This document shows, piece by piece, positions 1-41,435 of a stretch of 62,146 bases of DNA (position 1 is the stretch's first letter; each line of letters opens with the position of its first letter). Below the pieces are notes generated by a model. It was given only the letters and a program-made list of their open reading frames with translations, ran no database searches and had not been told where the DNA came from. The stretch spans positions 1 through 62,146 of the IMG/VR virus record IMGVR_UViG_3300021091_000076; one strand, 5' to 3'. The position numbers and the translations under genes were made by a program. Origin of the DNA: a virus.

Positions 1-143
1 ATGGTGTAGCAGGTACAGCCGCCATGGTGTGTCCAGGTGTTAGAGATTCTGGACGCAGAGGTGGTCCAGGAGCTATAAGAATCACGTACAGAGGTACGAA
101 CGTCAACGGTGAAGTACCGAGAAAACTAGGAGGTACTTTCTAA
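1..143 (+). CDS. Cys/Gly-rich structural paralogue, C-terminal end only
   Basis: The gene enters the window from the left; only the last 46 codons are visible (reading frame begins at base 3). The tail of the protein has a Cys followed by 'RDSGRRGGPGAIRITY', which aligns with the ends of the next two genes ('RDHGGRGGNGSVRIRY' and 'WRGGYGAVRINF'). It is therefore a third member of a tandem family. Its stop TAA (141-143) shares a base with the ATG of the next gene. The function is unknown; a virion tail or fibre role is inferred from context. Confidence 0.7.
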   Translation, partial: GVAGTAAMVCPGVRDSGRRGGPGAIRITYRGTNVNGEVPRKLGGTF

Positions 144-1357
144 TGGCATTATTAACACAATTATTAGGAAATAGACAACTGGCATTTGAAGATCAGTTAG
201 AAAAAGGACGTATTTGGGTATTTGGCGACGGTAATGAATATACTGGTTTATGCAATGGTTTCTGTTGGAAACCTCCAGGTTTCGGTATCGCTGTAATAGA
301 AATATACGGGCCAGGTGGTAGCACAGGGCGCGGCTGCTGCTGCGGCGGTGCAGTGCCAGGTAATCCGGGAGCGGTATCTAGAAAATGCATATGTGTTTGT
401 CCAACTAACTATGTCTGCGGTTCTATAGGTAGAGGCTGCGGCGCCACACCAGAATACAATCGAGGTGATGATCCAGAATCTGTAGGTTTGTGCTGGTTCG
501 GTTGTGCTATCCATCCTTTGTTTGAAGGTGGATACAATCCCGCCCAAACACAAAAATCATGGAGAGGAAACAACCCATGGGGCTGGGGCAATGGTGAGCC
601 CATGGGAAGTCAGCCCATGAACGATACTTCAACAGCAGCTAGATTTTTTAATCCTGCAGACACCGGGTGTCTAAGACGTGTATGCTGTACCGCTGGTGCG
701 ACAAGAGGTTGCATGTGTGCGCAAGGAGGCGCCGGAGGCACATTCTACTGTTCAAACGATGCTATGACGTCATACCTATGTTTTGCAAGAAATAGATACT
801 GCGGGCAACTAATAGGTACAGCAGAGATTTGCGGAGCATTAGCCAATGGTACCTGTGGTATTACCTGTAACGTAGGTGCAGAATGTGTTCAATGGAACAT
901 GAGAGGTATAAAGTGTGCATTTGGCGGGGATCTAAACTGCTGTGGGGTATTTTCTTGTACAAGATGGTTAGACTGTGTACGAAATCAAGCCAGCTGTCGT
1001 TGGCAATACCATCAAGCAACACCTCCTTTGAGATATTCCTCAGAAGGAGGAGTTTATACCTACATAGGAGAACACGACAGTCCCAGCTCAAGAGTATCTG
1101 GATCGAATGCACTGACACAGATGGCCGGAATTCAAACCTTAGCGAGAGATCCTTCATACGTTCAACCAGTATGGTGCTGGAGTGGTGGTGTGGGATGCGG
1201 ATGCTACGAAGCGTTTGGTTGCGTAGCTTGGGCCCCGTCAGGTATGGGAGGATATCCTTCTGCGGTCTGCGGCGACGTTCGAGATCATGGAGGGCGAGGC
1301 GGCAACGGTAGTGTGAGGATTAGATACACACCAACAGATGGAGGCTCAGCGTACTAA
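143..1357 (+). CDS. Cys/Gly-rich tandem protein 1 (404 aa), putative virion protein
   Basis: I count about 35 cysteines in 404 residues (near 9 percent), including CCC and repeated CxC/CC pairs, in a glycine-rich sequence. After a short N-terminal helix-like stretch ('MALLTQLLGNRQLAFEDQLEKG') comes a beta-rich body with 'VIEIYGPGG', 'GNPGAVSRKC', 'CMCAQGGAGGTFYC' and 'ANGTCGITCN'; the C-terminus is 'GGRGGNGSVRIRY'. The same landmarks in the same order occur in the following gene, so the two are paralogues. No signal peptide is evident. The start overlaps the previous stop (TAATG). Metal binding or disulphide knots in a tail-tip adhesin would fit, but no known family is recognised. Confidence 0.8.
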   Translation: MALLTQLLGNRQLAFEDQLEKGRIWVFGDGNEYTGLCNGFCWKPPGFGIAVIEIYGPGGSTGRGCCCGGAVPGNPGAVSRKCICVCPTNYVCGSIGRGCGATPEYNRGDDPESVGLCWFGCAIHPLFEGGYNPAQTQKSWRGNNPWGWGNGEPMGSQPMNDTSTAARFFNPADTGCLRRVCCTAGATRGCMCAQGGAGGTFYCSNDAMTSYLCFARNRYCGQLIGTAEICGALANGTCGITCNVGAECVQWNMRGIKCAFGGDLNCCGVFSCTRWLDCVRNQASCRWQYHQATPPLRYSSEGGVYTYIGEHDSPSSRVSGSNALTQMAGIQTLARDPSYVQPVWCWSGGVGCGCYEAFGCVAWAPSGMGGYPSAVCGDVRDHGGRGGNGSVRIRYTPTDGGSAY

Positions 1358-1358
1358 A

Positions 1359-2360
1359 ATGGCAACTTTAAGACAATTAGTTGAAAATAAAATAAATCAG
1401 ATAGACACTGATGAGATTAATCTAGAAAAAGGTCAATTATGGACTTATGTTCCGTCTGGTTCTGCTGGTACACAGTTCCATCCCAGCGGTATATTCTGTT
1501 GGCAATCGCCTGGTACAGGACGAGTTATCATAGACATTTGGGGAGCTGGAGGCAGCTCTCCGTCTATTAGATGCTGCGGAGTAGGACTTCCTGGAAATCC
1601 AGGTGCTTGGTCTAGAAAATGTATATGCGTAGTGGCAGGATGCCAGATCTGCGGACAAGTTGGACTCAGCTGCGGTAATCCAGAAACATTCTGTTTCAAA
1701 GGATGTTCCGAACCAACACAAGTTTGCTGGACCGGTAGAAACCCTTACACAGGCGCAGCTACCAATGGTTGTCTGTGTGCTCAGGGAGGTCGAGGAGGCA
1801 CTTCTTATTGTGCTCCAGGGAGTGCAGCAGTACTATGCTGTTATCAAAACGGAGGATTCTGCTTTACTAATCTATCTAACGGTACTTGCGGTATTGTTTG
1901 TAACTTTGGTTCTGGTACTGGATCATGTTGTGCAGAATCGTTTGGCGGCGACATTAATAGGCGCGGCGGATTCAGTTGCGCTACGTTCTACACATGCTAT
2001 AGTAATTGCCCATGTTCAACACAAGCACACGTGGCTATTCCTCCAGGTTTGTTTGCCTGCGATGGCGCTGTTGTTACGCATGGTTTTGAAAGCGATCAAG
2101 ATTTCTCTCAGTGGAACGGATCAGGTTATCACCAGTTTATCTTTATGTTAAACGCGATGAGACGTAGTCCAGCTAGAGGTATTCCGATGGTGGCTTGTTG
2201 GAGCTCAAATAAATCATGCGGATGTTATCAGATGCAGGCATGTATTCCATTTATGCCAACAGGAACAGGTGGAACAATGCCAACACCCTGCGGCGAGCAC
2301 TGTAATTTTGGATGGCGCGGCGGATATGGAGCAGTAAGAATTAATTTTATTCCGAGGTAA
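1359..2360 (+). CDS. Cys/Gly-rich tandem protein 2 (333 aa), putative virion protein
   Basis: This is a paralogue of the previous gene with about 32 cysteines. Shared landmarks in order are 'LEKGQLW', 'GIFCWQSPG', 'VIIDIWGAGG', 'GNPGAWSRKCIC', 'GCLCAQGGRGGTSYC', 'SNGTCGIVCN', 'SCGCYQMQAC' and 'RGGYGAVRINF'. I chose the ATG at 1359 rather than the in-frame ATG at 1338, because it sits one base after the upstream stop, has GGAGG about 15 bases upstream and aligns with the paralogue's N-terminus. It lacks the roughly 60-residue Trp/Asn-rich insertion present around residues 130-180 of its neighbour. Its role is unknown. Confidence 0.8.
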   Translation: MATLRQLVENKINQIDTDEINLEKGQLWTYVPSGSAGTQFHPSGIFCWQSPGTGRVIIDIWGAGGSSPSIRCCGVGLPGNPGAWSRKCICVVAGCQICGQVGLSCGNPETFCFKGCSEPTQVCWTGRNPYTGAATNGCLCAQGGRGGTSYCAPGSAAVLCCYQNGGFCFTNLSNGTCGIVCNFGSGTGSCCAESFGGDINRRGGFSCATFYTCYSNCPCSTQAHVAIPPGLFACDGAVVTHGFESDQDFSQWNGSGYHQFIFMLNAMRRSPARGIPMVACWSSNKSCGCYQMQACIPFMPTGTGGTMPTPCGEHCNFGWRGGYGAVRINFIPR

Positions 2361-2362
2361 AA

Positions 2363-3007
2363 ATGATTACAAAAAAATTTACACATCAACTACCAGACGA
2401 ACCGTACAAGCAATCGGCTGGTAAAAATCTCACAGTTGAATGCGAATATCAAGGTCCGCGTTTTCTTTTGGTAAGAATCAAAGAAGAAACTAGATCAGTG
2501 GTTTGCGTAGAAAGATATGGAGATGAAAGAGACCCCTTAGAAGCTAGTATTGTAGATGACGGTAATATTTGGGATTTCGCCATTCTTGACGCTGAACAAA
2601 ATACATGGGAAGCTGCATATCTTACAAGTAGTTACACACACGGAACTGTGGCGGACTACGAAGAATCTTTGCCTACCGGCGAAAAATATTCATTTGTTTA
2701 TCCAGATGGGTCTGGAGTGATCGGATCTTGCCATGCCATAGAAGGATTGAAATACGATAAAAACCTAAAGATTTTTACTCGTCCTAAATTTAATTCTCAT
2801 CCATTAGATTCTGTATCATTTTGGGAAAGTGTTGAACTTCAAAAAATTGAATTTGAAAAAATTCTATCCGGCGATCTATCTAAATACAGCAATGAAGTTA
2901 TTGCTGACATTAGAGCCTACAGTGATTTCTTGAAAACAGCTAAATCTCGTTATCAGAATGTAGATCATTGGAAATTCAGTTGGCCAAAGTTTCCAAATCT
3001 AGCTTAA
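2363..3007 (+). CDS. Unknown protein (214 aa) downstream of Cys-rich family
   Basis: It starts two bases after the previous stop and is probably in the same transcript. The N-terminal half is beta-rich ('FLLVRIKEETRSVVCVERYGD', 'IWDFAILDAEQNTWEAAYL'). The C-terminal part is helical with many charged residues ('FWESVELQKIEFEKILSG'), ending in an aromatic tail 'WKFSWPKFPNLA'. The helical end resembles a chaperone or tail-fibre-assembly style protein, but I recognise no family. Its position after putative fibre genes would suit a fibre accessory protein (inference). Confidence 0.6.
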   Translation: MITKKFTHQLPDEPYKQSAGKNLTVECEYQGPRFLLVRIKEETRSVVCVERYGDERDPLEASIVDDGNIWDFAILDAEQNTWEAAYLTSSYTHGTVADYEESLPTGEKYSFVYPDGSGVIGSCHAIEGLKYDKNLKIFTRPKFNSHPLDSVSFWESVELQKIEFEKILSGDLSKYSNEVIADIRAYSDFLKTAKSRYQNVDHWKFSWPKFPNLA

Positions 3008-3085: not shown

Positions 3086-4021
3086 ATGACAAGATCAAAA
3101 GCGTTTTTTATAAACGGCGGAGCCGGCAGGATGATTTGTTCTATCCCTGCTTTTGAACTGTATGAAAAAGAATCTGGAGACAAAGATTTTATTATCGTAT
3201 GTGAAGGCGGAACCGACGTTTTTAAAGGACATCCAACTTTAGATTCTAGAACCTATGACATATGGCATAAAAATTTATTTCAAGACAAATTAAAAGATCT
3301 TGAAATAGTGACAACAGAACCTTATAGAATCTGGGAGTATTATAATCAAAAATGTTCAATAGGACAGGCCTTCGACATTCAGATCAATGACAAGGGTATT
3401 AGAACGCTGTCTAAACCATCTCTATATCTTTCCAAAGACGAATTGTTAAATGGCAGATACGTTGTCGGCGAAGTAAAGAAAAAGCTCAAAAAAGATAAAA
3501 TTATAGTTTTTCAACCTTTTGGTCGCGGCATAGAATACATCGATGAAACACTGGTAGATAAGACCGGAAGAAGTTTTGAACTTAAAGATGTAAAACAAAT
3601 CATCAAGAAATTACAAAATGCCGGATTTGCAGTTATCATGATGAGCGAATTTAAAATAGACCTAAGCGATGCGAAATTAAAAGACGAAGTGGCCAGTCCA
3701 GAAAATACTAATATTAGAATATGGTCGGCTATAATCAAATATTGCGATCATTTTTTAGGCTGCGACTCTGTAGGACAACATTTGGCCTACGCTATGGAAA
3801 CTCCATGTACAACTGTAACGGGATCTACTTATCCTATAAATGTAAGTTATCCAGATACACAAGGAGTAGAAGTATTAGATATGGGTGAAATTCATAGAGA
3901 ATTCAGTCCTATAAGAATTACAGTAGACGAACGAGTAGACAGAAAGAATGAAAAATTAATGACTATGAATGAAGATATTACTACATTAATAGTTGATCAT
4001 GTACTAGGGAAAAAAGAATGA
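3086..4021 (+). CDS. Heptosyltransferase-like glycosyltransferase (GT9/GT-B type)
   Basis: The 311-residue protein has the two-domain layout of GT-B enzymes. The N-terminal motif is 'FFINGGAGRMICSIPAFELY', a typical GT9 opening that normally reads G..GD...tP. The C-terminal donor-site stretch is 'YCDHFLGCDSVGQHLAYAMETPCTTVTGSTYPINVSYP', matching the family's 'D..g.HlA.a...P.v.lfG.t.P' region. The expected role is transfer of a heptose or similar sugar from a nucleotide donor to a glycan. Its stop overlaps the start of the carbamoyltransferase (ATGA), so the two are translationally coupled and probably act on the same product. The exact sugar is not knowable from sequence. Confidence 0.65.
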   Translation: MTRSKAFFINGGAGRMICSIPAFELYEKESGDKDFIIVCEGGTDVFKGHPTLDSRTYDIWHKNLFQDKLKDLEIVTTEPYRIWEYYNQKCSIGQAFDIQINDKGIRTLSKPSLYLSKDELLNGRYVVGEVKKKLKKDKIIVFQPFGRGIEYIDETLVDKTGRSFELKDVKQIIKKLQNAGFAVIMMSEFKIDLSDAKLKDEVASPENTNIRIWSAIIKYCDHFLGCDSVGQHLAYAMETPCTTVTGSTYPINVSYPDTQGVEVLDMGEIHREFSPIRITVDERVDRKNEKLMTMNEDITTLIVDHVLGKKE

Positions 4022-5847
4022 CAGTTACTTCGATAGCAAATGAAAAAAAACCAGTTTGGATCGCTGGAATCGCGAGAGGACACAATTCCGGTGTTTGCTT
4101 GCTTAAAGACGGCGAAATAGTTTTCAGCATAGAAGAAGAAAGATTAACAAGACAAAAATATGATGGCGGTCCTCTGGCTTCTATGGTCAAGATTTTAGAA
4201 TATACAGATAAACTAGATTATCTCGTGATCGCTCATACCCAAAGTTTACAAGAAACTGCTGGTAAAATTGATTATACCGGAGACGATGTGTATACAGGTA
4301 TGGCAAGGAAATTAGGTTTGATCGATAGAAAGGTAAAAAATCTTCACCGCCATCCCCAAGTTATAGATATGAGCTATATGCATCATAAATTGCATACAGC
4401 CTGCGCATTTTATCGCAGCGGATTTAAAGATGCAGTAGCATTGATTGTAGATGGTGCCGGTACATTTTTTCCTATGGAATATAACGGCAGTCAGATTTGG
4501 TTTTGGGAAACTGAGTCGATCGTTAATTGCGATTACCCTGCAGAATTCAAAACTTTATACAAGCATTACGGTACTAGAGATCCTGTGGCCACCGCTTTCA
4601 TGCCAGAATTTAGTTCGGATCCTTTAGGTGAAACTGGAGAAACACACGAAGCCTGGTTGACTGATCGAGCAGGTATCGTAAAAGTATATGAAGGTGTTAC
4701 AGAATACTGTGGATTTTCTGCTATTGAAGCAGGAAAAACTATGGGATTATTTCCTTACGGAAAACCCAACGATAAGATTCCTCCGTTGTTTGATCCAATA
4801 GGTAAGACTGTTTTATCAAATAGAAATCTAATCATTCCTAAATATCCTATGAGCAGTGTAGTTAATATGAATCTTTTCGATGAATTAGAAAAAAATCCGG
4901 AAAACATCGACGACGATGTTACCTATATGGAGAATCGCAGAGATATGGCCTATGCTGTTCAAACCCAATCTCAGGATCAAGTAGTTAGACTAATCAAATA
5001 CGCTGTTGAAAAAAGCGGCAAAAACAAAGTGGTTATCAGCGGAGGATATGGACTAAATTGTGTAGCTAATTATCATTATCTAGAACAACTGAGAGATAGC
5101 GGAATTGAAATTTACGTAGAACCTATCAGCAACGACGCGGGCACTGCTATGGGAGCCGCTCTGATGTTCTGGCATGGTATGTACAATGACGAAACTATCC
5201 GTCCTTATGGCACACTTTATCTAGGACCGGCTTACTGTTATACTGCCGATGAAATACAGTCAAAAGTATCAAATGTTAAGAACGCTACATTATCTAAGGC
5301 CGATCACAAAGATATCGTAAAATTACTTCGTGGAAAAAATATTGTTACCATCTTTCAAGGTCGGAGTGAAAACGGTCCTAGAGCATTAGGTAATCGTTCA
5401 GTGCTATTTGATCCTACTTTTTCTGACGGTAAAGATTACGTAAACATGGTCAAGCGCAGAGAATATTTCCGCCCATTTGCAGGAAGTATTCTAGAAGATG
5501 ATGTACATGAATGGTTCGATTTGCGTGGTATGAAAAATAGTCCGTTTATGATGTATGCTGTGAATTGTCAGCCCGGTATTGAAGAAAAGATTCCTAGTAT
5601 CATCCACGAAGATCATACCTGTAGAATTCAAACAGTTAATCGTGAGCAAAATCCACATTACTACGACCTAATTAAAACTTTCAAAGAAGAAACAGGAATT
5701 CCTATACTATTTAATACCAGTTTTAATCTAGGAGGAGAACCCTTAGTCGAAACTTTGGATGATGCTATATGGACACTGCAAAATTCAGATATAGAATATC
5801 TGTATCTTCCAGAATACGAAAAATTAATACATATTCCTAATGAATAA
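4018..5847 (+). CDS. Carbamoyltransferase, NodU/TobZ family, two-domain
   Basis: This is a full-length (609 aa) O-carbamoyltransferase. The N-terminal Kae1-like domain begins 'IAGIARGHNSGVCLLKDGEI', carries the metal-site HxxxH ('HHKLHTACAF', near residue 121) and 'ALIVDGAGTF'. The C-terminal YrdC-like domain carries 'GRSENGPRALGNRSVLFDP' (near residue 447) and 'REYFRPFAGSIL', the carbamoyl-adenylate region. The family moves a carbamoyl group from carbamoyl phosphate to a hydroxyl, using ATP. Known acceptors include sugars (nodulation factors, aminoglycosides, LPS heptose) and, in some phages, 5-hydroxymethylcytosine. Coupling to a heptosyltransferase-like gene favours a sugar acceptor here (inference). 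Confidence 0.9.
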   Translation: MTVTSIANEKKPVWIAGIARGHNSGVCLLKDGEIVFSIEEERLTRQKYDGGPLASMVKILEYTDKLDYLVIAHTQSLQETAGKIDYTGDDVYTGMARKLGLIDRKVKNLHRHPQVIDMSYMHHKLHTACAFYRSGFKDAVALIVDGAGTFFPMEYNGSQIWFWETESIVNCDYPAEFKTLYKHYGTRDPVATAFMPEFSSDPLGETGETHEAWLTDRAGIVKVYEGVTEYCGFSAIEAGKTMGLFPYGKPNDKIPPLFDPIGKTVLSNRNLIIPKYPMSSVVNMNLFDELEKNPENIDDDVTYMENRRDMAYAVQTQSQDQVVRLIKYAVEKSGKNKVVISGGYGLNCVANYHYLEQLRDSGIEIYVEPISNDAGTAMGAALMFWHGMYNDETIRPYGTLYLGPAYCYTADEIQSKVSNVKNATLSKADHKDIVKLLRGKNIVTIFQGRSENGPRALGNRSVLFDPTFSDGKDYVNMVKRREYFRPFAGSILEDDVHEWFDLRGMKNSPFMMYAVNCQPGIEEKIPSIIHEDHTCRIQTVNREQNPHYYDLIKTFKEETGIPILFNTSFNLGGEPLVETLDDAIWTLQNSDIEYLYLPEYEKLIHIPNE

Positions 5848-5891: not shown

Positions 5892-6329
5892 ATGATGAAT
5901 TTTGCTAAATTTTTCTTTCAAGGCGTGAAAAATACTCTAAGAGTACAAAACGGAGTAAATTTCTCTTATAAAGGCCCTTGGATTTCTGTATTTCAAGACA
6001 CTGTTATCGATGAATGGTATGTGGGCGATTTCATGGCCGCTGAATATACCATAGTTGTAGATGTAGGAAACACCAAAAAAGAAATTATCAAAGCTATGGT
6101 AGTAGCAGGTCCTGAGCAGGCCAATGTTATGATCTATGGAAGAAATAGTCTCAATGAAAGATTAGTAGATTTATCGGCGGTTGTAACTGCTTCTAAGCTT
6201 CAATTAATAGCTAATCCTTCTACTAGTCCTAATGACAGTACCTATGATGATTCTCAACTGTTAGTTGGGTCCAAGGTAATTTTCAGCGCAACTTACTATT
6301 ATACACAGAACGATCTCACTAGTTACTAA
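5892..6329 (+). CDS. Putative virion structural protein (145 aa)
   Basis: A small beta-rich protein with 'WISVFQDTVIDEWYVGDFMAAEYTI' near the N-terminus and 'VGSKVIFSATYYYTQND' at the C-terminus. It is acidic-to-neutral with few charged helices. Two adjacent ATGs (5892, 5895) are possible starts. It has its own late promoter (CTAAATA, 5878-5884) and no ribosome binding site, as expected for a late virion gene in this phage. Similar small proteins sit beside tail-fibre genes in aquatic T4-like phages, but I cannot name a specific function. Confidence 0.6.
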   Translation: MMNFAKFFFQGVKNTLRVQNGVNFSYKGPWISVFQDTVIDEWYVGDFMAAEYTIVVDVGNTKKEIIKAMVVAGPEQANVMIYGRNSLNERLVDLSAVVTASKLQLIANPSTSPNDSTYDDSQLLVGSKVIFSATYYYTQNDLTSY

Positions 6330-6395: not shown

Positions 6396-7007
6396 ATGTC
6401 AATAAATTACATACCTTTAGAGTCAAAAAGCGGCTTCAAAAGCCCGGGTTTTTCTGTCAACGAAAACGGAGACCTCACAGTAGACGGCTCAGTTTTATTC
6501 AACAGCCAACTTAATGTAGCGCCTAATTTCACAGTCAACGGAATATTAATAATTGACAGTACCGATTCTGTAGTTAGTTTAGGCTCCGACATTAAGCACA
6601 GTAGCTTAACAAAATTAGGAATCTTAGAAAATTTAGCAGTCGATGGAGATTTTACAGTTGCACAAGGCTCAACGCCCTATGTTAATATTGTTAATGGGCA
6701 TGTAGAGATAAACTCAGTAGCAGCAGTTGGATCTATAGACAATATAGATATAGGATTAAAAGATCCAGGTCACGGTAATTTCAAATCTTTAAACGTTGGG
6801 CCAGGTGACAGCACCGGCGAACTCAGTGTTCAAGGTAATGTAACGGTTACTTCTAATATTACTGTCACTGGCGATGTATCTGCCACTGGCGATGTATCTG
6901 CCAGTGACATTTCGTCAACAAATTTACCGACTGCTGCAACACATCTTACCAGAAAAGATTACGTTGACGCAAAGATAGCTGCATTTTCAATTGCTTTTGG
7001 AGCATAA
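6396..7007 (+). CDS. Small tail-fibre-like beta-repeat protein (203 aa)
   Basis: The sequence is a run of short beta strands with repeated 'V.G...V' turns ('LTVDGSVLFNSQLNVAPNFTVNGI', 'VTVTSNITVTGDVSATGDVSASD'), typical of trimeric beta-helix fibre shafts. Near the C-terminus 'THLTRKDYVDAKI' matches the motif that marks the end of many phage tail-fibre chains. A short DNA duplication encodes the adjacent 'TGDVSA' repeats (about 6870-6905). It is probably a fibre or fibre-attachment protein, expressed with the giant protein that follows 10 bases later. Confidence 0.65.
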   Translation: MSINYIPLESKSGFKSPGFSVNENGDLTVDGSVLFNSQLNVAPNFTVNGILIIDSTDSVVSLGSDIKHSSLTKLGILENLAVDGDFTVAQGSTPYVNIVNGHVEINSVAAVGSIDNIDIGLKDPGHGNFKSLNVGPGDSTGELSVQGNVTVTSNITVTGDVSATGDVSASDISSTNLPTAATHLTRKDYVDAKIAAFSIAFGA

Positions 7008-7017
7008 GGATAGATAA

Positions 7018-10000
7018 ATGGCAAAGAAACAGATAAAAAATTATGTATTTGAACCAGGCATTAGCAAGGACAGTAATCTATATCCTAATGCAGTAGCATT
7101 GCTGAGTGCTAATAAAGCATTTTTACAAGCCCAAGTAGTGGCTTTCATTAACAATCAAATCACGAATAATATTTCTCCATATAATGGTTATACATACGCT
7201 CCTGAAAAATGTGTTCGAGACGTAGGATATTTTATTGATGCGGTTATACATGATTTAAGATACGGTGGAAACGTAAAATCTAGAACCGTTGCAGATTATT
7301 TTTGGATCAATGGCGAACCACAAATCAGAGGAGATGTGAGCCCAGAAATTGTTGGTCAACAATATCTAAGAGATTTAATTAACAATTTTATTTTTACCAA
7401 TACTACGGTTACACCCACATACGGTCAGACTGCTGTGTCACAGGTAAAATACACTGGTCAAAACGCAGAAGCAGGAACATCAGCAAGAAACACTACTCTA
7501 TGGGATATCTTTGGCACGGTGATTCAAAACGGTATTCCTGCTATGCCATCAAAGCAGCCTGGAGTATCGTGTGTTAAATTGCAGGGCAAATATGATCCTA
7601 GCGATATTTTATTAATCACTAATACCAATACAGGACAAATTCTATACAATTTTGCTGACTCTAGTAATTCAATAACCATAGAATTAAAAAATGGTAGAAG
7701 CAGCGGCGATGGAAATTTATTAAGCGATTTAGATTTTCCAACATGGTGGCAAAATAATGATTGTATCAGCATAATATCATTATCAACAGATACCAGTGCA
7801 TTATCTACATCTACAGATATACAAATTTTCGTAGAAGAACCCTATCAAACTATTCGCCCGTGGGAATTCGGTACGGATGCGATTGAACGTATGCGTGTTG
7901 CCGCTCCTCAGGCCATGTTAGACGCTGACTTTGAATACGGACTACAGCCCACTAAATGGCAAGCACTGGGATTGATTAGAAGCTATCCTTCTGTGTACGA
8001 AGTGCCTGGAACCGATCTTTCTATCTCTGCCGTAACCACAGATGCATCGACCAACACCGGGGGATTTGGTAGTTCATTGATCACAATAACAACCACTGGA
8101 TCTCATGGATTTTCTGTAGGCACTGCGATCACGATCAAAGGTCTGAATACTGCTGTAAACGGTTTTTCTAGAGCAGAAGGATCTTTTATCATATTCAGTG
8201 TACCTAGCTCAGTTACTTTTACCTATTATAGTTCTGCAAAGGTAGGAACAACATTAGGCGAAAGTTTATTCACTACTTTCGTACAGGCTAGACAAGCTGC
8301 ATTTTTCACGGGATCAGCGATCGGAACGCCTACTTTCTCAGTTTTTTCTAATGGTGCTAATTCTACTGTAATATCAAAATTCGACACACCCAACGGATCT
8401 TTACAGATAGCATTTAACGGAACCTCACCAACTCCCGGCTCCCCAATTTCAGGAAGCCCATTGATCGTTCCAGGTTCGTCTATATCAGGAGTTATTGGAT
8501 CTGGAACTATCACAAGGAACATTGCAGAAACAGTAACGCCCACTGACACAAGTATCGAACTAGTTACTTTAGCAGGAGTACAGCAAGGAATGGCCATAGA
8601 CGATGGCCTTAATAATGCAGTTTTTATCAATAGTATTTCAGGCAATACTCTTTTCCTTTCTAACGCTGTTGGACAATCATATGTAGGAGCCAATGGAACT
8701 AATACTGGGGTATCTGGATCTAATATCAATGGTATAGGTAGCGGAGCTACTTTTACAGTCACGCGATCGGGTGGAAATTACAACGTGATTGATTCTGGAG
8801 ACAGTACCTACAACGGTACAAATTACGCAGTGGGAGATCGAGTAAAAATATTAGGAACAGACTTAGGAGGAACAAGTCCGGCTAATGATGTTACTATTAC
8901 TGTAGATTCTATTGACAGCGGTGGCGCTATACAGACTTTCACAGCCACAGGCACATCTATTTCTGGTGGTGCAGTATATATTAATCAAACACAATCTAGT
9001 ACTACAGGTTCTGGCTCTGGAGCTTCGTTGTCTGTAACAAGAACTGGAGGTACCGGAGCATACTCTATAACATTATTTAATGGTGGTTCGTCTCATAATC
9101 CCGGAGATATAATAACTTTTAATGGTACTTTATTTGGTGGCGATGATGGTGTCAACGACATCGTTATTACCGTAGATGGGGTCTCGTTTGGAACACAGGC
9201 TGTGGTAGATTTTACTATAAATGGCTCACCGGTAGGCGCTACTGGAAATGCTACCTATACTAGTTTGCCTGTCACAAACATAGCTGTAGCAGGTTCAGGT
9301 GCAACATTTACAATAGTAAGAAGCGGTGGATCTTATTCTGCTACTGTAGGTGTAGGCAACGGCGGAATTGATTATCTTGTAGGTAATAGAATATTAATTC
9401 TAGGAACATCATTGAATGGCACTAGTCCTTCTAATGATTGCACAGTCACGGTAACCGCAGCTAGCTCAGGATCTATCTTAACAGCTACAGCTACAGGAAC
9501 ACCGTTCGAAGGAAATACCATAATAGTTTATCCTACCATGTCCATCAGCGATGCTATTACCGGAGAAATTCCAGACGGTACTACTCTTAATGTAGGTGCT
9601 ATTGCCACTATACAAGTAGATTTCGCCAGTGCTCATGGATTGATTCCGGGAACTACAGTATTATCTAATGTAACCTCAACACCGGCGCCCGACTTCAGCT
9701 CTACAAATAGAATACTTGGTAGTTCGGGTACATGGGTAGGTACTGCTTTTAATGCAGGAGTCTTTGTAGCTATAAGAACAGGTAGCTCTGCTACTAATAA
9801 ATCTATAGACGGACAAACATGGACCGCTGGAGGATTAATGCCTTCAGCAGCAAACTGGGTAGCTGTGGCCGGAGGAACGATAGGTGCTGTCAATTACTTT
9901 ATGGCAATCGCCACAGGCAGCAATGCTTCTTGTTGGTCGAATGATGGCGGAAACACATGGACTGCTGCTACTTTGCCTTCAAGCGCCGCATGGTCAGCTA

Positions 10001-13000
10001 TTACATTTGCTAATGGTAATTTTGTCGCAGTGTCCAGTGGAGGAACAGCAGCAGCATATTCGGTCAACGGACAAACATGGACTGCTGCTACTTTGCCTTC
10101 AAGCGCCGCATGGTCAGATGTGACTAGCGGACTGATCGGTTCGTCTTTTTATGTTATAGCTGTGTCAAGCGGGGGCACAGCGGCTGCTTTCTCAGCAGAC
10201 GGTGGTGTAGGTTGGACTGCAACAGGCGCATTGCCGGCTTCAAGTACTTGGAGCACCGTAGTTTATGGTAATTCTAGATTTATTGCAGTAGCTAGAGGTA
10301 CGACTAATGCTGCTTTATCAACGAACGGTACTAGTTGGACCTTAGTTACTTTACCAACTAGTGCTAACTGGAATTGTTCAGCATTTGGAGACGATACGTT
10401 TGTTGTAGTAGCGGACGGCGGAACACAATGCTTGACATCTTTTACAGGTGAAACCGGTTCTTGGACAGATCGAACATTGGCTAGCTCTGCTACATGGGAA
10501 GAAATTGCCTTCGGAAACTATTCAGGTATAGGTATATTTGCAGTAGTAGCCAGCGGTGGAACAGCAGCATTGAGTATATCATTAACTTCGGCCAATCATT
10601 CGTTAGCAGCAGGTCCATTTGTTATCACACAAGTACCTACTCCAACATCATTAAGATATCCTGCTAGAACAACAGGAACTATAAGCGTGTCAGCAGCACC
10701 TATTACCGGCGTTCTCAACGTTAGACCAGACAGCTTCTTTGTACATAGACCGTTTGATGGCGGTGTTCAATTAGGCACCGGCGGCCCAAGTCATTCTGCT
10801 CAATCGATTAGACAGAGTAAAAAATATATACGTTATCAATCAGGTAAGGGTGTTATGTACACCACCGGAGGATTGTTTGCTCCTAGTTATAATATTTCAG
10901 GTGCTACGGCAGCAGCTTTAGCAGTTAATAGTTTCATAACATTTACCTGTGATGACACCGATCATGGTTTACAACCCGGCGCCGTGGTTGAAATCATAGG
11001 ATGTACCAGTTTTGAATATAATGGCGAATATGTCATAGAAAGTATAGTGGATGCAAGACGTTTTAGGGTAAGAGCCCTAGTGGTATTAAGCACATTAACA
11101 GCCAGTTTAGGAGCAGAAGCCAAGGTTATATTAAAATACTGGCATGGATCAACTGTGAGAATTGGGGCGTTTGACGAACAAAACGGATTATTTTATCAAT
11201 ACGATGGCACGAGGCTGTCTGTAGTAAGACGTTCTAGCACTAACCAATTAACAGGCACAGTGGCATGCACTGTGGAAAGTAACTTAGTTACAGGTTCAGG
11301 AACAAGATTTCAAGATCAATTAAAGGCTGGAGATAAAGTAGTGATCAGAGGTATGAGTCATACTGTTACAAATGTTACCAGCCAAACATCCATGACTGTT
11401 GCACCTGACTGGAGAGGTGCTAACAACATATCTGGTGCGAAAATGGCCGTTACACAAGATTTCCTTGTACCACAAGAAGATTGGAATATAGATAGATTGG
11501 ATGGGACCGGCCCCAGCGGATATAACATATTACCGTGGCGTATGCAAATGTTAGGTATGCAATATTCTTGGTACGCTGTTGGATTTGTTGAATTCATGTT
11601 GCGTGGTGGAGATGGTAGATTTGTATTCTTACATAAATTCAGACATTCAAATGTAACCACAGAAGCATACATGAGAACAGCTAATTTGCCTGTAAGATAT
11701 GAAGTTGAAAATATCAGTGCTAAAAGCAAACTGATGGCTACCATAAATTCTGTAGCGCAGTCTATGACACTTCAAGACGCTTATTATTTTCCAACAAATG
11801 GCATCGTCTATGTAGACAATGAATTGATTTCTTATAGCGGTAAAAACGGAAATACTCTTACGAATCTAAGTAGAGCAGCATCTATGACTGCATTTACAGC
11901 AGGTCAAAATAGAACATTTACAGCAGGATCTGCAACAACTCATACAGTAGGAGTCGGTGTAATTTTAGTCAGTTGTACTTGCTCGCCTACTATTAGCCAT
12001 TGGGGATCGGCGTTATTGACAGACGGCATGTTCGATGAAGATAGAGGATATCTATTCAACTACGCTGCTACAGGTTTAAGCGCCAGTACAACCAAGCAGA
12101 CTGCATTTATGATTAGGTTAGCTCCTAGCGTGTCAAATGCTCTCACAGGTGACCTAGGTGAAAGAGATTTATTAAATAGAGCACAATTATTATTGGCTGA
12201 AATCGCTATTACAGCAGATACAGGCACAGGGGCTATCGTAGTAGAAGGAGTGTTAAATCCAAGAAACTATCCAGCTAATCCTGCTAACGTTATTTTTAAC
12301 GGATTATCTAGTTCGGGTGCAGGCGGCCAACCTAGCTTCGCACAGATCGCGCTAGGTGGTTCGGTAAACTGGGGCGGGACTCCTATCACAACTTCTACTG
12401 CTACTATCCAAGGAGCTTTGTCAAGTGCGTTTACAGCGATAGGAAATAGTACCGGCGGCACGACTTTTAGTAATGCATTTAGAAACGATCGAAATACATT
12501 TGTTCTTACCACAGCGGCTTTCGACATAAGCGGAATTCAAATTGGAGATTTGGTATCTAATGCTACATTCTTAGTGGGCGGTAGAACTATTATAAACATT
12601 CAAAGAAACGGTATAACGATTGGAGCGACACCTCATACTATCATTACCATGAGCTTGAACGCCAGCGCCACATCTGCGACAAATGCCAATCAAGTAATCA
12701 CAGTAACCGTTCCACAGACTGCTGCTAGCTATCCCAACACTAACTATCTGTTCTTTACCAACGCATCCTGGAACGCATCCGGAGCTGCGGTAGGTACTAG
12801 AGTAGCACCCGCATTCACACAATTTCCTGCGGGTACTTCCGTAGCTGCGGTTGTAACTAGGACTCTAGCAAATGTTACGATAAGACGTGTAACATTTACT
12901 CAGAACAGTAATGCAACATTATCTTCTGCAGCCACAGTTACTTTTGAATTTGGTGATCCTCAGTATGCATTGCCAGGAGAGCAGGTGTTTGCCTTTGTAA

Positions 13001-13182
13001 CAAACCCCGGTTCAACGACAGCGTTAAGTCTTTTAAACCTCAAAGAATTAACTACCACTGCTATAGGTGGCCGCGGAACATTTCCAAATGGTCCCGATGT
13101 ATTAGCTATTAATATTATTAAGGTTTCAGGAACTGCTACTCCGTGCTCGGTAGTTCTTCGTTGGGGAGAAGCCCAGGCTTAA
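7018..13182 (+). CDS. Giant tail/fibre structural protein with BNR propeller (2054 aa)
   Basis: The N-terminal 130 residues ('YTYAPEKCVRDVGYFIDAVIHDLRYGGN') match a head domain common in T4-like cyanophage structural proteins. Residues about 570-850 hold three modules starting 'GSGATFTVTRSGG', 'GSGASLSVTRTGG' and 'GSGATFTIVRSGG'. Residues about 890-1190 form at least six repeats with Asp-box-like 'S.DGGNTWT'/'SVNGQTWT' signatures, the pattern of a sialidase-type beta-propeller. The C-terminal 850 residues are Thr/Ala-rich and beta-like. A host-recognition or side-fibre role is likely. The last 47 bases overlap the end of the convergent gene. Confidence 0.85.
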   Translation: MAKKQIKNYVFEPGISKDSNLYPNAVALLSANKAFLQAQVVAFINNQITNNISPYNGYTYAPEKCVRDVGYFIDAVIHDLRYGGNVKSRTVADYFWINGEPQIRGDVSPEIVGQQYLRDLINNFIFTNTTVTPTYGQTAVSQVKYTGQNAEAGTSARNTTLWDIFGTVIQNGIPAMPSKQPGVSCVKLQGKYDPSDILLITNTNTGQILYNFADSSNSITIELKNGRSSGDGNLLSDLDFPTWWQNNDCISIISLSTDTSALSTSTDIQIFVEEPYQTIRPWEFGTDAIERMRVAAPQAMLDADFEYGLQPTKWQALGLIRSYPSVYEVPGTDLSISAVTTDASTNTGGFGSSLITITTTGSHGFSVGTAITIKGLNTAVNGFSRAEGSFIIFSVPSSVTFTYYSSAKVGTTLGESLFTTFVQARQAAFFTGSAIGTPTFSVFSNGANSTVISKFDTPNGSLQIAFNGTSPTPGSPISGSPLIVPGSSISGVIGSGTITRNIAETVTPTDTSIELVTLAGVQQGMAIDDGLNNAVFINSISGNTLFLSNAVGQSYVGANGTNTGVSGSNINGIGSGATFTVTRSGGNYNVIDSGDSTYNGTNYAVGDRVKILGTDLGGTSPANDVTITVDSIDSGGAIQTFTATGTSISGGAVYINQTQSSTTGSGSGASLSVTRTGGTGAYSITLFNGGSSHNPGDIITFNGTLFGGDDGVNDIVITVDGVSFGTQAVVDFTINGSPVGATGNATYTSLPVTNIAVAGSGATFTIVRSGGSYSATVGVGNGGIDYLVGNRILILGTSLNGTSPSNDCTVTVTAASSGSILTATATGTPFEGNTIIVYPTMSISDAITGEIPDGTTLNVGAIATIQVDFASAHGLIPGTTVLSNVTSTPAPDFSSTNRILGSSGTWVGTAFNAGVFVAIRTGSSATNKSIDGQTWTAGGLMPSAANWVAVAGGTIGAVNYFMAIATGSNASCWSNDGGNTWTAATLPSSAAWSAITFANGNFVAVSSGGTAAAYSVNGQTWTAATLPSSAAWSDVTSGLIGSSFYVIAVSSGGTAAAFSADGGVGWTATGALPASSTWSTVVYGNSRFIAVARGTTNAALSTNGTSWTLVTLPTSANWNCSAFGDDTFVVVADGGTQCLTSFTGETGSWTDRTLASSATWEEIAFGNYSGIGIFAVVASGGTAALSISLTSANHSLAAGPFVITQVPTPTSLRYPARTTGTISVSAAPITGVLNVRPDSFFVHRPFDGGVQLGTGGPSHSAQSIRQSKKYIRYQSGKGVMYTTGGLFAPSYNISGATAAALAVNSFITFTCDDTDHGLQPGAVVEIIGCTSFEYNGEYVIESIVDARRFRVRALVVLSTLTASLGAEAKVILKYWHGSTVRIGAFDEQNGLFYQYDGTRLSVVRRSSTNQLTGTVACTVESNLVTGSGTRFQDQLKAGDKVVIRGMSHTVTNVTSQTSMTVAPDWRGANNISGAKMAVTQDFLVPQEDWNIDRLDGTGPSGYNILPWRMQMLGMQYSWYAVGFVEFMLRGGDGRFVFLHKFRHSNVTTEAYMRTANLPVRYEVENISAKSKLMATINSVAQSMTLQDAYYFPTNGIVYVDNELISYSGKNGNTLTNLSRAASMTAFTAGQNRTFTAGSATTHTVGVGVILVSCTCSPTISHWGSALLTDGMFDEDRGYLFNYAATGLSASTTKQTAFMIRLAPSVSNALTGDLGERDLLNRAQLLLAEIAITADTGTGAIVVEGVLNPRNYPANPANVIFNGLSSSGAGGQPSFAQIALGGSVNWGGTPITTSTATIQGALSSAFTAIGNSTGGTTFSNAFRNDRNTFVLTTAAFDISGIQIGDLVSNATFLVGGRTIINIQRNGITIGATPHTIITMSLNASATSATNANQVITVTVPQTAASYPNTNYLFFTNASWNASGAAVGTRVAPAFTQFPAGTSVAAVVTRTLANVTIRRVTFTQNSNATLSSAATVTFEFGDPQYALPGEQVFAFVTNPGSTTALSLLNLKELTTTAIGGRGTFPNGPDVLAINIIKVSGTATPCSVVLRWGEAQA
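9955..9997 (+). repeat. 43-bp direct repeat, copy 1 (propeller gene)
   Basis: The 43 bases from ACATGGACTGCTGCTACTTT to CATGGTCAG recur exactly at 10075-10117, one propeller blade (120 bases, 40 codons) further on. Identity at third codon positions implies a recent duplication or gene conversion between blades. Confidence 0.9.
10075..10117 (+). repeat. 43-bp direct repeat, copy 2 (propeller gene)
   Basis: Second exact copy of the 9955-9997 segment, offset by 120 bases, encoding the same 'TWTAATLPSSAAWS' blade segment. Confidence 0.9.
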
Positions 13183-27130: not shown

Positions 27131-28717
27131 ATGGCAAAAAGTCTAGACGGTAATTTAATTAAAAAAGCTCACGCCCCTCAAAAATACACACTTGAGGAAG
27201 TCAAGCATCTTGAAGCATGTATGGATCCAAATGACGGACCTCTGTACTTCATGAAAAATTTTTTAAAGATACAACATCCGACTAGAGGATCAATTTCATT
27301 CGCACCGTATGAATATCAAGTAAGATTAATAGAGGCATATCATAATCATAAAGATGTTATAGCAATGCTACCAAGACAGATGGGAAAAACTACCTGTGCT
27401 GTAGGATATCTTTTATGGTTTACACAATTTGTTCCTGAATCGCAAATTCTAATCGCTGCCCACAAATATGAAGGTGCGCAAGATATAATGAATCGCTATC
27501 GATTTGGATATGAAAATCTACCTGACTTTATCCGTGCCGGTGTTTACAGTTATAATCGTAATACGATTGAATACGACAATGGTTGTAGAATACAAGCAAC
27601 AACAACTACAGAAAACACAGGTCGTGGTAAATCATTATCACTGATTTACTGCGACGAGTTCGCATTTGTGCAGCCGCCAGAAAAAGCCAAAGAATTCTGG
27701 ACAGCACTATCGCCAACATTATCTACAGGCGGCCGTGCTATAATCACATCTACTCCAAACTCGGACGAGGATCAATTCGCAATGATCTGGACCGAAGCAA
27801 ACAATAAATTTGACGAGTATGGTAATGAACAAGAATTAGGTGTCAATGGATTCTTTTCTTATTATGCACACTGGCACGAGCATCCTGACAGAGATGAAAA
27901 CTGGGCAAAGACTGAGAGAGCTAAGATTGGCGAAGAGCGTTTTCGTAGAGAATTCGATTGTGAATTCTTGATTTTTGATGAAACCCTTATAAATGCAGTC
28001 AAACTTGCGGATTTAAAAGGTATAGAACCAACATTGACCATGGGTCAAACTCGTTGGTATAAAGACATTGATCCTAGGGCCACTTATTTGGTTGCTTTAG
28101 ATCCATCTATGGGAACTGGCGGAGACTATTCTGCTATACAGGTTTTTGAAATGCCGTCCATGATTCAGGTAGCAGAGTGGCACCATAATCTTACGCCAGT
28201 ACAGAATCAGACTAAACATCTGCGTGAAATTTGTAAGTACATACAGGATAGAGGAGCAGAAAAAGGCGGGCATCCCCAGATTTATTATTCTGTAGAAAAT
28301 AATACAGTTGGTGAAAGTGCGTTAGTGTGTATACAAAATATAGGAGAAGAAAATATTCCTGGTCTTTTCCTTAGCGAACCTATACGTAAAGGTCATGTCC
28401 GAAGATTCCGAAAGGGTTTTAATACTACACACAAAAGCAAAATAGCTGCATGTAGTCAATTCAAACACATGCTAGAAACAAATAAAATGACCATTTATAG
28501 CAAACCCTTTATATCAGAGCTAAAAAATTACGTAGCTAACGGTATAGGATTTAGGGCTAAAACAGGAGAAAACGACGATTTAATTTCGTCAGTTTTATTA
28601 ATCGTAAGAATGGCCGGGATACTTAGTGATTGGGATCCTAAAATCTATGAAAAAATGACAGACAAACTCACCGAAGATCAAATGCCAATGCCTATATTCG
28701 TAAGCACAGGATTTTGA
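27131..28717 (+). CDS. 17: Terminase large subunit gp17 (packaging ATPase/nuclease)
   Basis: The ATPase Walker A is 'PRQMGKT' (residues 81-87), and Walker B with the catalytic Glu is 'LIYCDEFAF' (near 175), followed by the coupling-motif-like 'AIITSTPNSDED'. The C-terminal RNase H-like nuclease begins 'YLVALDPSMGTGGDYSAIQVFE' (Asp near 324) and includes 'YYSVENNTVGESAL' and 'NDDLISSVLLIVRM'. It drives DNA into the prohead through the portal and cuts concatemers. At 528 residues it is shorter than T4 gp17 (610). The ATG has no ribosome binding site, but a late promoter lies 5 bases upstream. Confidence 0.95.
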   Translation: MAKSLDGNLIKKAHAPQKYTLEEVKHLEACMDPNDGPLYFMKNFLKIQHPTRGSISFAPYEYQVRLIEAYHNHKDVIAMLPRQMGKTTCAVGYLLWFTQFVPESQILIAAHKYEGAQDIMNRYRFGYENLPDFIRAGVYSYNRNTIEYDNGCRIQATTTTENTGRGKSLSLIYCDEFAFVQPPEKAKEFWTALSPTLSTGGRAIITSTPNSDEDQFAMIWTEANNKFDEYGNEQELGVNGFFSYYAHWHEHPDRDENWAKTERAKIGEERFRREFDCEFLIFDETLINAVKLADLKGIEPTLTMGQTRWYKDIDPRATYLVALDPSMGTGGDYSAIQVFEMPSMIQVAEWHHNLTPVQNQTKHLREICKYIQDRGAEKGGHPQIYYSVENNTVGESALVCIQNIGEENIPGLFLSEPIRKGHVRRFRKGFNTTHKSKIAACSQFKHMLETNKMTIYSKPFISELKNYVANGIGFRAKTGENDDLISSVLLIVRMAGILSDWDPKIYEKMTDKLTEDQMPMPIFVSTGF

Positions 28718-33657: not shown

Positions 33658-34113
33658 ATGAATTGGTATGATCGAGTTTCAAAAGACATTTCAAACATAC
33701 CAGATGCCGTGGCATTTTATGAAGCCGAATTGTTGGCTGCAAAACAAGATGCTCGCATAACAGGAAATATTGAAAAAGCATCTGCTGCAATGCCGGGCAT
33801 CGTTGAAAATCGATTTAATCAACTTCAAGAGATAGAAGCTGTTTTAGAATATCTTAACATCGAATTACGCAGACTGCGCAGTCAACATTTTCGTAAATAT
33901 CTTGAAAATTATCAACGCAGCCTGTCCTCTAGAGACTGTGAAAAATTTGTAGAGGGCGAGGCTGACGTCGTTGATTTTGAAAAGATTATAAATGATTTTG
34001 CTCTGTTAAGAAATAAATGGTTGGGCATTATCAAAGCGTTAGATATCAAACAATGGCAGTTATCAAATATTGTTAAATTAAGAACTGCCGGATTAGAAGA
34101 TGCAACATTATGA
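33658..34113 (+). CDS. uvsY: Recombination mediator UvsY
   Basis: The 151-residue helical protein matches the UvsY pattern of T4-like cyanophages: 'EIEAVLEYLNIELRRLRSQHFRKYLENYQRSLSSRD' in the middle and 'LLRNKWLGIIKALDIKQWQLSNIVKLRTAGLEDA' at the end, the counterpart of the C-terminal helix in T4 UvsY (137 aa). UvsY helps UvsX displace gp32 from ssDNA. Gene order gp32-uvsX-uvsY supports the call. It overlaps the next gene by 4 bases. Confidence 0.7.
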   Translation: MNWYDRVSKDISNIPDAVAFYEAELLAAKQDARITGNIEKASAAMPGIVENRFNQLQEIEAVLEYLNIELRRLRSQHFRKYLENYQRSLSSRDCEKFVEGEADVVDFEKIINDFALLRNKWLGIIKALDIKQWQLSNIVKLRTAGLEDATL

Positions 34114-35090
34114 ATGTATTAGTTACAGGTGGCCTGGGTCTTATAGGTCATAACATTGTTAGTAAATTGACAAAACTTGGTCACAAAGTTATAGTCTACG
34201 ATAGTTGTACAAATTACGGAGTAATTCCTCAATCTGAAATAGATTATCTAATTAATGAGCGTAAAAAAATAATAGGCAATGTTGAAATCCATGAAATGGA
34301 TATTATGCAAAGCAGCATTTTTGATTGGTTATTGCCTAGTCATAATATAGATACTATCATTCATCTAGCTTCATTTCCTAGACAAAAAGTAGTAAACTCT
34401 GATCCTGTCCGGGGCAGTGCCGTAATGAGCACAGGTTTATTATTGTTGCTAGAAAAAGCTGTGAAACACAAAGTTCGAAGATTCGTCTACGCTAGCAGTA
34501 GTATGGTCTACGGAGACTTTACAAATTTCGTAAGCGAAGATGCAATATGTAGACCTCAGGGTCAATATGGCATATTGAAATTAGCCGGAGAATGGTTAGT
34601 ACGTGATTATTCTAGAAAATACGGATTAGAACATACCATTCTTAGACCTAGTGCAGTATATGGTCCATTAGATGTGGAGGATAGAGTAATATCCAAATTT
34701 CTTTTGACTGCTATGCGAGGACAAACTCTTAAGGTAAATGGTAGAAATGAAACTTTAGATTTTACCTATGTCGATGATGCCGCCGATGGTTTTGTAAATG
34801 CTACACTTTCACAAAAAACAATAAATCAAACTTATAATATCACGAAAAGTCACAGTAAAACATTATTAGCAGCAGCAGAACTAGCTGTAAGATTAGTCGG
34901 AAAAGGCAGTATTGAAGTTCGAGAAAAAGATGCAGACTTTCCCAGCAGGGGTGCTTTAGATATTACAGCAGCTCGACGAGATTTTAATTTTGACCCAAAA
35001 ATAGATATAGAAGAAGGATTTGAAATCTATTATAACTGGTTAATAGAATCGGAATATTGGCAATCTAATCTAAAAAATACAATTATCTGA
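34110..35090 (+). CDS. NAD-dependent nucleotide-sugar epimerase/dehydratase (SDR)
   Basis: The Rossmann motif 'VTGGLGLIGHNIV' at the N-terminus, catalytic Ser region 'YASSSMVYGDF' and YxxxK 'YGILKLAGEWLVRDY' place it in the extended SDR family acting on nucleotide sugars. 'LRPSAVYGPLDVEDRVISKFL' and 'TLDFTYVDDAADGFVNAT' are typical substrate-domain features. It is the first gene of the sugar cluster and overlaps uvsY by 4 bases, so the cluster begins on the recombination transcript. The exact sugar cannot be read from sequence. Confidence 0.85.
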   Translation: MNVLVTGGLGLIGHNIVSKLTKLGHKVIVYDSCTNYGVIPQSEIDYLINERKKIIGNVEIHEMDIMQSSIFDWLLPSHNIDTIIHLASFPRQKVVNSDPVRGSAVMSTGLLLLLEKAVKHKVRRFVYASSSMVYGDFTNFVSEDAICRPQGQYGILKLAGEWLVRDYSRKYGLEHTILRPSAVYGPLDVEDRVISKFLLTAMRGQTLKVNGRNETLDFTYVDDAADGFVNATLSQKTINQTYNITKSHSKTLLAAAELAVRLVGKGSIEVREKDADFPSRGALDITAARRDFNFDPKIDIEEGFEIYYNWLIESEYWQSNLKNTII

Positions 35091-39631: not shown

Positions 39632-40429
39632 ATGTTACAAATTTTAGAAAAAGATTACCAAGAAGGTATTAGATGGTTTGAAAATTGGAATGGCTTAAAT
39701 AGGGTAGATAGCCACGAATCTGTAAATGCTAATGTTCCTATTATAATAGGAGCAGATCTTCTTCGACCAGAAGTTAGAAACTTTTTAAATCTCAATCAAC
39801 CGGGCATTTATATAGCAAGAGGATACCTAGGAAATCATATACGTAAAACAAGATGGTGGTGGAGATATAGTATAAATTCATGGGCTAATACCAAGATACT
39901 AGATATCCCATATTCGAGATGGGATCTATTGAATTTAGAAAGACATCCTTGGAAAGTCAAAGAAGTAAAACGTGTATTAATCGCTCCTAGTAAGATGACA
40001 CAGCCTATATGGGATCCATCTAGCGGTTGGGGATGGGCTGAATATATGTCTACTCGATTTCCAGGAGCCGATGTTAAAATTAGATACAAGAAAGGCAAAT
40101 CAGGACTAAGATGGGAATCCTTATTCAAAGATTTAGATTGGGCAGATCTAGTTGTAGCACAAGGATCTGCCATAACAGCTGAGGCATTCTGGTACGGAAA
40201 AAAGGTCATTAGTCTAGGACCATGCACGACATGGGCTGCTGAGAAAAATACACTTAAAGATTGGAAAAATCCTAAAGAACCGGAATTAAGAGATTCTTGG
40301 CATGAACATCTTGCATGGTCGCAATTCACAGAAGAAGAATGGAAATCTCAAGAAGCACTACAGCTTATTGAAAAATATATAGGATCAATATTAGATTACG
40401 GTATTAGACACAATTACAAATTTAATTAG
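39632..40429 (+). CDS. Capsule-transferase-like paralogue C, divergent (265 aa)
   Basis: It opens 'MLQILEKDYQEGIRWFENWNGLNRVD'. The C-terminal part contains 'DLVVAQGSAITAEAFWYGKKVISLGPCTTWAAEKN' and 'ELRDSWHEHLAWSQFTEEEWKS', a more divergent version of the paralogue scheme. Its 3' end overlaps the convergent epimerase gene by 8 bases. It is the last plus-strand gene before the minus-strand block. Confidence 0.55.
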   Translation: MLQILEKDYQEGIRWFENWNGLNRVDSHESVNANVPIIIGADLLRPEVRNFLNLNQPGIYIARGYLGNHIRKTRWWWRYSINSWANTKILDIPYSRWDLLNLERHPWKVKEVKRVLIAPSKMTQPIWDPSSGWGWAEYMSTRFPGADVKIRYKKGKSGLRWESLFKDLDWADLVVAQGSAITAEAFWYGKKVISLGPCTTWAAEKNTLKDWKNPKEPELRDSWHEHLAWSQFTEEEWKSQEALQLIEKYIGSILDYGIRHNYKFN

Positions 40430-41435
40430 TTTTTCCTAATTTCAATAAAATTTTAAGTTCGTTATCTTTGTAATTATTTTTAGAAACTTGATCAAAGATC
40501 CACTGGTATGTTATTTCTAATCCAGTTTTTAATGGCTGTTTGTAATCCCAACCTAACTTATTTCTAATTAATGTATTATCAGAGTTACGACCTCTAACTC
40601 CTTCAGGACCAGATATATTTTTAATAGTTAATTTTTTTCCTGAAATATCTATAACCATCTGAGCTAATTGATTAATGCTGACCATTTCTTCGCTGCCTAT
40701 GTTAACTGGACCGGAGAAATCGCTGTTCATTAATCTAATAGTAGCTTCCACACATTCGTCGATAAACAAGAAGGATCGAGTTTGTTTTCCGTCACCCCAT
40801 ACTTCTATATATGTTCCGTCCACAGCTTCAGCGACTTTCCTACACATAGCAGCAGGAGCTTTTTCTCTTCCTCCTGCCCATGTTCCCTGAGGTCCGAATA
40901 TATTATGGTACCTAGCCACTCGAACTTGAATTCGGTAATTCCTCATTAATGCCAAAAATAATCTTTCACTAAAAAGTTTTTCCCATCCGTATTCGCTATC
41001 GGGCGCAGCAGGATATGCACTTTCTTCCGAACATAAAGGATTGTCGGGATCTTCTTGATTATAAGCAGGATACATACAGGCACTAGAGCTATAAAAAACC
41101 TTTTTAATTTGTTTAGCAACAATTTGCTCGACCACATTTAAATTAATAGTAGCCGAATTATGCATAATGTCAGCATCGTGCTCACCGGTAAAGATATAAC
41201 CTGCCCCGCCCATATCTGCTGCTAATTGGTATATTTCATCTATGTCGGTTGTAATAATATTTCTACAAATTTCTTGTTCTCTTAAATCTCCAATTATAAA
41301 TTCGTCTGCTGAAGTCGAGCTAAACTCTGGATGTTTTAGATCAACTCCTCTAACCCAATTACCTTCTGCTTTGAGACGTTTAACTAAATGAGATCCAATA
41401 AATCCACCGGCCCCTAACACTAAAATTTTTTTCAT
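40422..41435 (-). CDS. GDP-mannose 3,5-epimerase-like enzyme
   Basis: Very close in pattern to plant and bacterial GDP-mannose 3,5-epimerases: 'LGAGGFIGSHLV', 'YQLAADMGGAGYIFTGEHDADIMHN', 'YSSSACMYPAYNQ', 'YGWEKLFSERL', 'RYHNIFGPQGTWAGGREKAPAAMCRK', 'WGDGKQTRSFLFIDECVEATIRLM' and 'GPEGVRGRNSDNTLI'. The 337-residue length is normal. The known reaction converts GDP-D-mannose to GDP-L-galactose/GDP-L-gulose; related enzymes act on GDP-heptose. It implies a GDP-activated sugar made by the phage or host. Confidence 0.88.
   Translation of the reverse strand: MKKILVLGAGGFIGSHLVKRLKAEGNWVRGVDLKHPEFSSTSADEFIIGDLREQEICRNIITTDIDEIYQLAADMGGAGYIFTGEHDADIMHNSATINLNVVEQIVAKQIKKVFYSSSACMYPAYNQEDPDNPLCSEESAYPAAPDSEYGWEKLFSERLFLALMRNYRIQVRVARYHNIFGPQGTWAGGREKAPAAMCRKVAEAVDGTYIEVWGDGKQTRSFLFIDECVEATIRLMNSDFSGPVNIGSEEMVSINQLAQMVIDISGKKLTIKNISGPEGVRGRNSDNTLIRNKLGWDYKQPLKTGLEITYQWIFDQVSKNNYKDNELKILLKLGKTN

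Follow-up and report, generated by a model that had tools for sequence, protein, structure and literature searches.

The best solved match to the modelled fold of the proteins described here is the Pam3 tail fibre gp24 (7YPX), a homotrimer. Each of its chains starts with a helix for docking, which is followed by a TNF-like domain and, distally, by a glycine-rich domain that has been proposed to bind the receptor (PMC9608196). Gp24 is encoded by a single gene and has a chaperone, gp25; glycine makes up 39% of its distal domain. The adhesin gp38 of Salmonella phage S16 (6F45) has a distal glycine-rich loop lattice that carries its receptor-binding loops (PMC9608196). The virion of phage Milano holds an extensive disulphide network, located in its sheath and baseplate, and the structural proteins of this phage average 2.1% cysteine (PMC10811340).

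The DNA analysed here (the window) is a virus record of 62 kb (62,146 nucleotides) with genes for sheath, tube, large terminase, UvsX, SSB, and helicase. The virus is an aquatic, T4-like myovirus and probably a jumbo phage. Its large terminase (27131-28717) is closest to those of jumbo Pseudomonas phages such as PA5oct (53% identity), whereas its tail-tip module resembles those of cyanophages. Relatives of this module occur on contigs of up to 365 kb. The genes at the left edge of the window are as follows.

3..143, plus strand: paralogue A, C-terminal end; 46 codons and a stop (141-143), containing CPGVRDSGRRGGPGAIRITYRG
143..1357, plus strand: paralogue B; 404 aa, 35 Cys; Cys/Gly-rich, tail-fibre-tip-like
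1359..2360, plus strand: paralogue C; 333 aa, 32 Cys; member of phrog_4205; Pam3 tail fibre as fold match of the model
2363..3007, plus strand: phrog_9740 protein; 214 aa; beta domain at the N-terminus, helical hairpin at the C-terminus
3086..4021, plus strand: phrog_8954 protein; weak Glyco_transf_9 match, below cut-off; next in the module
4018..5847, plus strand: Nol-like carbamoyltransferase; conserved next gene of the module
5892..6329, plus strand: small conserved protein; 145 aa; part of the module
6396..7007, plus strand: tail-fibre-like protein; C-terminal end TRKDYVDAKIAAFSIAFGA
7018..13182, plus strand: virion structural protein, phrog_5838; 2054 aa; first gene past the module

Cysteine-rich paralogues and their relatives

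The genes A, B, and C follow one another in the same orientation from the left edge of the window, and their stop and start codons overlap or touch. B and C are paralogues (41-43% identity, E down to 6.6e-30), and a complete gene equivalent to A is present in other contigs (for example L005, 4967-5998). The mechanically called start of C at 1338 is probably wrong, because the ATG at 1359 fits the conserved N-terminus. Once the starts of gp106 and gp107 of cyanophage S-CAM1 are moved upstream, a start motif, M..L..LL, is common to the window proteins and those of S-CAM1. The annotated starts of these two genes are probably too far downstream (L046, 10841-12702), and upstream ATGs restore the conserved N-terminus.

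Cysteine makes up 8.7% of B and 9.6% of C, and glycine 17% and 16%, respectively; the next-highest cysteine content among window ORFs of at least 150 aa is 2.6%, and the median is 1.3%. Profile scans of IMG/VR returned 247 relatives, from which the best 80 of 247 were kept. Conservation was evaluated in a set of 129 relatives less than 90% identical to one another, whose mean cysteine content is 9.8%. Fifteen alignment columns were cysteine in at least 95% of these sequences and nine more in at least 80%, giving 24 in all. Since the conserved columns include the CC, CCC, CxC, and CxxxC clusters, the clusters are neither chance nor a frame artefact, and the original prediction of adjacent cysteine-dense paralogues, one of them partial, describes a real feature that is kept in relatives. 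At columns where cysteine is the majority, the non-cysteine residues were mostly R, T, K, S, Y, or N and rarely G, so a residue-by-residue exchange of cysteine for glycine within the family was rejected.

Among 84,980 prokaryote genomes scanned, a relative was found on one contig only, from a metagenome-assembled genome; the family is thus essentially viral. Searches of phage records with B and with a solitary copy from another contig (tblastn) gave no match, and literature searches found the cysteine-rich form nowhere described.

Family identity and predicted fold

The proteins had been thought to belong to no described family, which was only partly right. C matches phrog_4205 (HMM E 2.8e-13, profile positions 4-285 of 287), as do A and other C genes; B itself has no match, and an orthologue of B reached only 9.6e-4. 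The family is therefore described, but phrog_4205 has no assigned function. Its members include gp105-107 of S-CAM1, gp156-158 of S-CAM3, and PSSM2_304 and 306 of P-SSM2, so that the genes occur as a tandem of three in cyanophages S-CAM1 and S-CAM3 and of two in P-SSM2. Profile-profile comparison linked the window family to the S-CAM1/S-CAM3 proteins over nearly its full length (E 9e-21, positions 1-327) and to the P-SSM2 proteins at E 1e-6. The S-CAM and P-SSM2 members are likewise cysteine-rich and have the same neighbouring genes, but the S-CAM proteins have many of their cysteines at positions other than in the window family, and the P-SSM2 proteins have a longer N-terminal part.

A more distant described relative is the Pfam family Gly_rich_2 (PF21722). 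S-CAM1 gp107 scored above its cut-off (5.4e-10, 40.1 bits; cut-off 24.3), as did two S-CAM3 proteins, whereas none of 42 window-family members reached the gathering cut-off of this family or of any other in Pfam. Gly_rich_2 and the phage family have the landmarks W.VP..V...IWGAGGSG....G.PG.GAY in common; the difference is that poly-glycine in the window family has largely given way to cysteine-rich runs with CCC and CxC motifs. The window-family profile was also compared directly with four low-cysteine glycine-rich proteins of cyanophages; this gave no match, perhaps because that alignment was small and poorly aligned outside the domain. Because Pfam and the direct comparison were negative, membership of the glycine-rich tips rests on the bridge through the S-CAM proteins and on a structure model of moderate confidence.

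That model, an AlphaFold2 prediction for a single chain of C (mean pLDDT 71.6, pTM 0.73), has a predicted helix at residues 4-21 with strands after it. Its best PDB match by Foldseek was the Pam3 tail fibre (7ypx_A; E 5e-5, prob 1.00), with modest TM-scores of 0.40-0.51, followed by ALK/LTK glycine-rich domains and the Bxb1 tail tip. S16 gp38 was absent from the best fold matches listed, and that adhesin is not known to be rich in cysteine. Among viral models, C matched those of S-CAM3 (E 1e-13), P-SSM2, Syn9 gp38, and many phage proteins annotated as 'glycine-rich domain-containing'. Sequence searches of the PDB with the family profile, S-CAM1 gp107, and an S-CAM profile gave nothing usable, and between Pam3 gp24 and the window proteins no similarity can be detected at the sequence level. 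Unlike the distal domain of gp24, the window proteins are 15-17% glycine overall and do not have the high-glycine GGGGxGG character. The fold match, the profile homology of the S-CAM proteins that match Gly_rich_2, and the tail-fibre synteny described below all support the tail-tip adhesin originally proposed, and no enzyme match emerged from the family searches, in which NCBIfam returned nothing. Most likely, the window proteins are a cysteine-rich version of the glycine-rich tip of tail fibres.

A conserved module with three copies

The gene order is conserved among IMG/VR contigs, S-CAM1, S-CAM3, and P-SSM2: a giant tail-fibre-like gene, two small genes, the cysteine-rich set, and then genes for phrog_9740, a glycosyltransferase-like protein, and a carbamoyltransferase. 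In the IMG/VR contigs the module continues with a small gene and a short tail-fibre-like gene. The two small genes that regularly precede the cysteine-rich set encode, in most cases, a protein of 106 aa that begins MATGxLG and one of about 110 aa that begins MGR (L005, 4289-4950, and equivalents elsewhere); their products are perhaps connectors of the tip. The window also encodes heptosyltransferase-like and two carbamoyltransferase-like proteins (3086-5847, 55151-56098) and nucleotide-sugar epimerases (34110-35090, 40422-41435), which suggests that a sugar is synthesised or modified by the phage.

The phrog_9740 gene directly follows the cysteine-rich set in nearly all relatives; in P-SSM2 a gene judged by eye from its sequence to be phrog_9740-like lies between the two copies. 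The model of the phrog_9740 protein, a beta domain with a helical hairpin, is confident (pLDDT 96) and had no match among solved structures, Pam3 gp25 included, so it may be a new fold. A Tfa-type chaperone of the Pam3 gp25 kind was considered for this protein, and the fold gives no support for it. One of 43 members had a weak Caudo_TAP score (E 0.17). We would guess that phrog_9740 is an assembly helper.

Exactly three copies of the cysteine-rich gene were found in each of 34 IMG/VR contigs (51-365 kb), a count that includes near-identical contigs and hence fewer independent cases. P-SSM2, with its two copies, is the exception. Relatives with a single copy were ruled out, since a long contig of the group in question holds two more elsewhere. 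In one of the 34 contigs the three copies are split, with a solitary copy among structural genes about 22 kb from the other two, which are in the usual module (L148, 5351-7286; L120, 3977-4954). In a tree of 76 sequences, the gene positions formed their own clades within each of two lineages, with the exception of one row; these clades apply within a lineage and do not say which position in one corresponds to which in the other. Position labels changed 8 times on the tree, compared to 50.8 times in shuffles. Judged by their sequences, A, B, and C are old, separately maintained subunits. Within lineage I, mean pairwise identity was lowest for B (54%), followed by A (56%) and C (66%); B shows almost no conservation at residues 161-180.

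The earlier suggestion that tandem copies reflect diversification holds only in part. The fixed number of three and the old separate lineages of the positions indicate fixed subunits rather than expanding diversity, though the hypervariable segment of the middle protein, B, retains a part of that idea. Because relatives nearly always have exactly three copies, the three may act together as one part. The family itself was already known as phrog_4205; what is new here is the constant three copies, the position-specific clades, and the conserved tail-fibre module.

A different explanation is that the genes encode three independent homotrimeric tips, each with a receptor of its own and retained together for different host surface structures. 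We consider this rather unlikely, albeit with several observations in its favour: Pam3 gp24 is itself a homotrimer (PMC9608196), at least about half of the residues differ between the paralogues, B varies strongly in one segment, and the split contig has one copy well away from the other two. Three copies in all 34 contigs and a gene order that is kept speak against it. Host-range adhesins usually differ in number among relatives.

State of the cysteines and a possible tip

Among the 129 sequences, the number of cysteines was even in 65 and odd in 64, with no bias towards even counts. Of 36 variable cysteine columns, only the pair at 123 and 207 of C stood out in paired gains and losses (p 0.0005, uncorrected). 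Complete pairing of all cysteines within a chain is thus disfavoured, and interchain bonds, free cysteines, and metal ligands are all compatible with the equal parity and weak covariation. Disulphides in the window family are plausible because the Milano virion has such a network, although the Milano proteins are unrelated to the window family and their average cysteine content is far below its 9-10%.

In a metal-loaded tip, iron, zinc, or copper would be bound by the CCC, CxC, and CxxxC groups, which could add stability or let the phage take advantage of the host's uptake of metals. Such a tip would account for the strong conservation of the clusters, and free or ligand cysteines would be expected to give odd counts as often as even and few paired changes. 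We nevertheless regard it as improbable, as the proteins matched none of the known metal-site families, have no invariant histidine, and differ from the S-CAM proteins at many cysteine positions, unlike a conserved metal site. That the proteins are instead cysteine-rich, non-virion products acting inside the infected cell is very improbable: no proteomic proof of virion location, or virion proteome of any known carrier containing these proteins, was found in the literature, but the tail-fibre fold, the tail-fibre neighbours, the shared N-terminal helix, and the absence of any enzyme or regulator match in family searches all argue for a structural role.

We favour, with reasonable though limited confidence, the reading in which the three paralogues are subunits of a three-part distal adhesin of a T4-like (probably jumbo) myovirus, probably stabilised by disulphides after lysis. 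A, B, and C would each contribute a different subunit to a distal adhesin of the tail fibre or baseplate. The short N-terminal helix of each chain may dock on the fibre or baseplate, and the predicted fold would place after it a beta (TNF-like) part and then, at the distal end, a glycine-rich loop domain like that of Pam3 gp24. In this domain, as seen in the alignments, many of the usual poly-glycine stretches have been exchanged for cysteine-rich ones. Given their fixed number and old separate lineages, the three paralogues would be needed together, most simply as a 1:1:1 heterotrimer. The chains would be made reduced in the cytoplasm; after lysis, in oxidising water, many of the conserved cysteines would probably form disulphides within and between chains and stiffen the tip. 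The hypervariable segment of B is a likely candidate for receptor contact.

In its most specific form, which we offer tentatively, this adhesin would be an obligate three-gene, cysteine-cross-linked heterotrimeric receptor-binding tip, with a network of about 24 cysteine positions per chain in place of the poly-glycine lattice. We found a heterotrimeric tail-fibre tip nowhere in the literature. With similar reserve, we suggest that the carriers of such a tip are large T4-like phages, nearly all of them known through environmental sequence alone.

If this reading is true, a widespread phage family of unassigned function would gain one, and the distal loop lattice of tail-fibre adhesins would have a second mode of construction, with cysteines in place of poly-glycine. 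It raises the question of whether a receptor-binding tip can be built from three fixed paralogous subunits, and would provide an extreme case for how proteins made in a reducing cytoplasm come to bear a dense network of cysteines in the virion.
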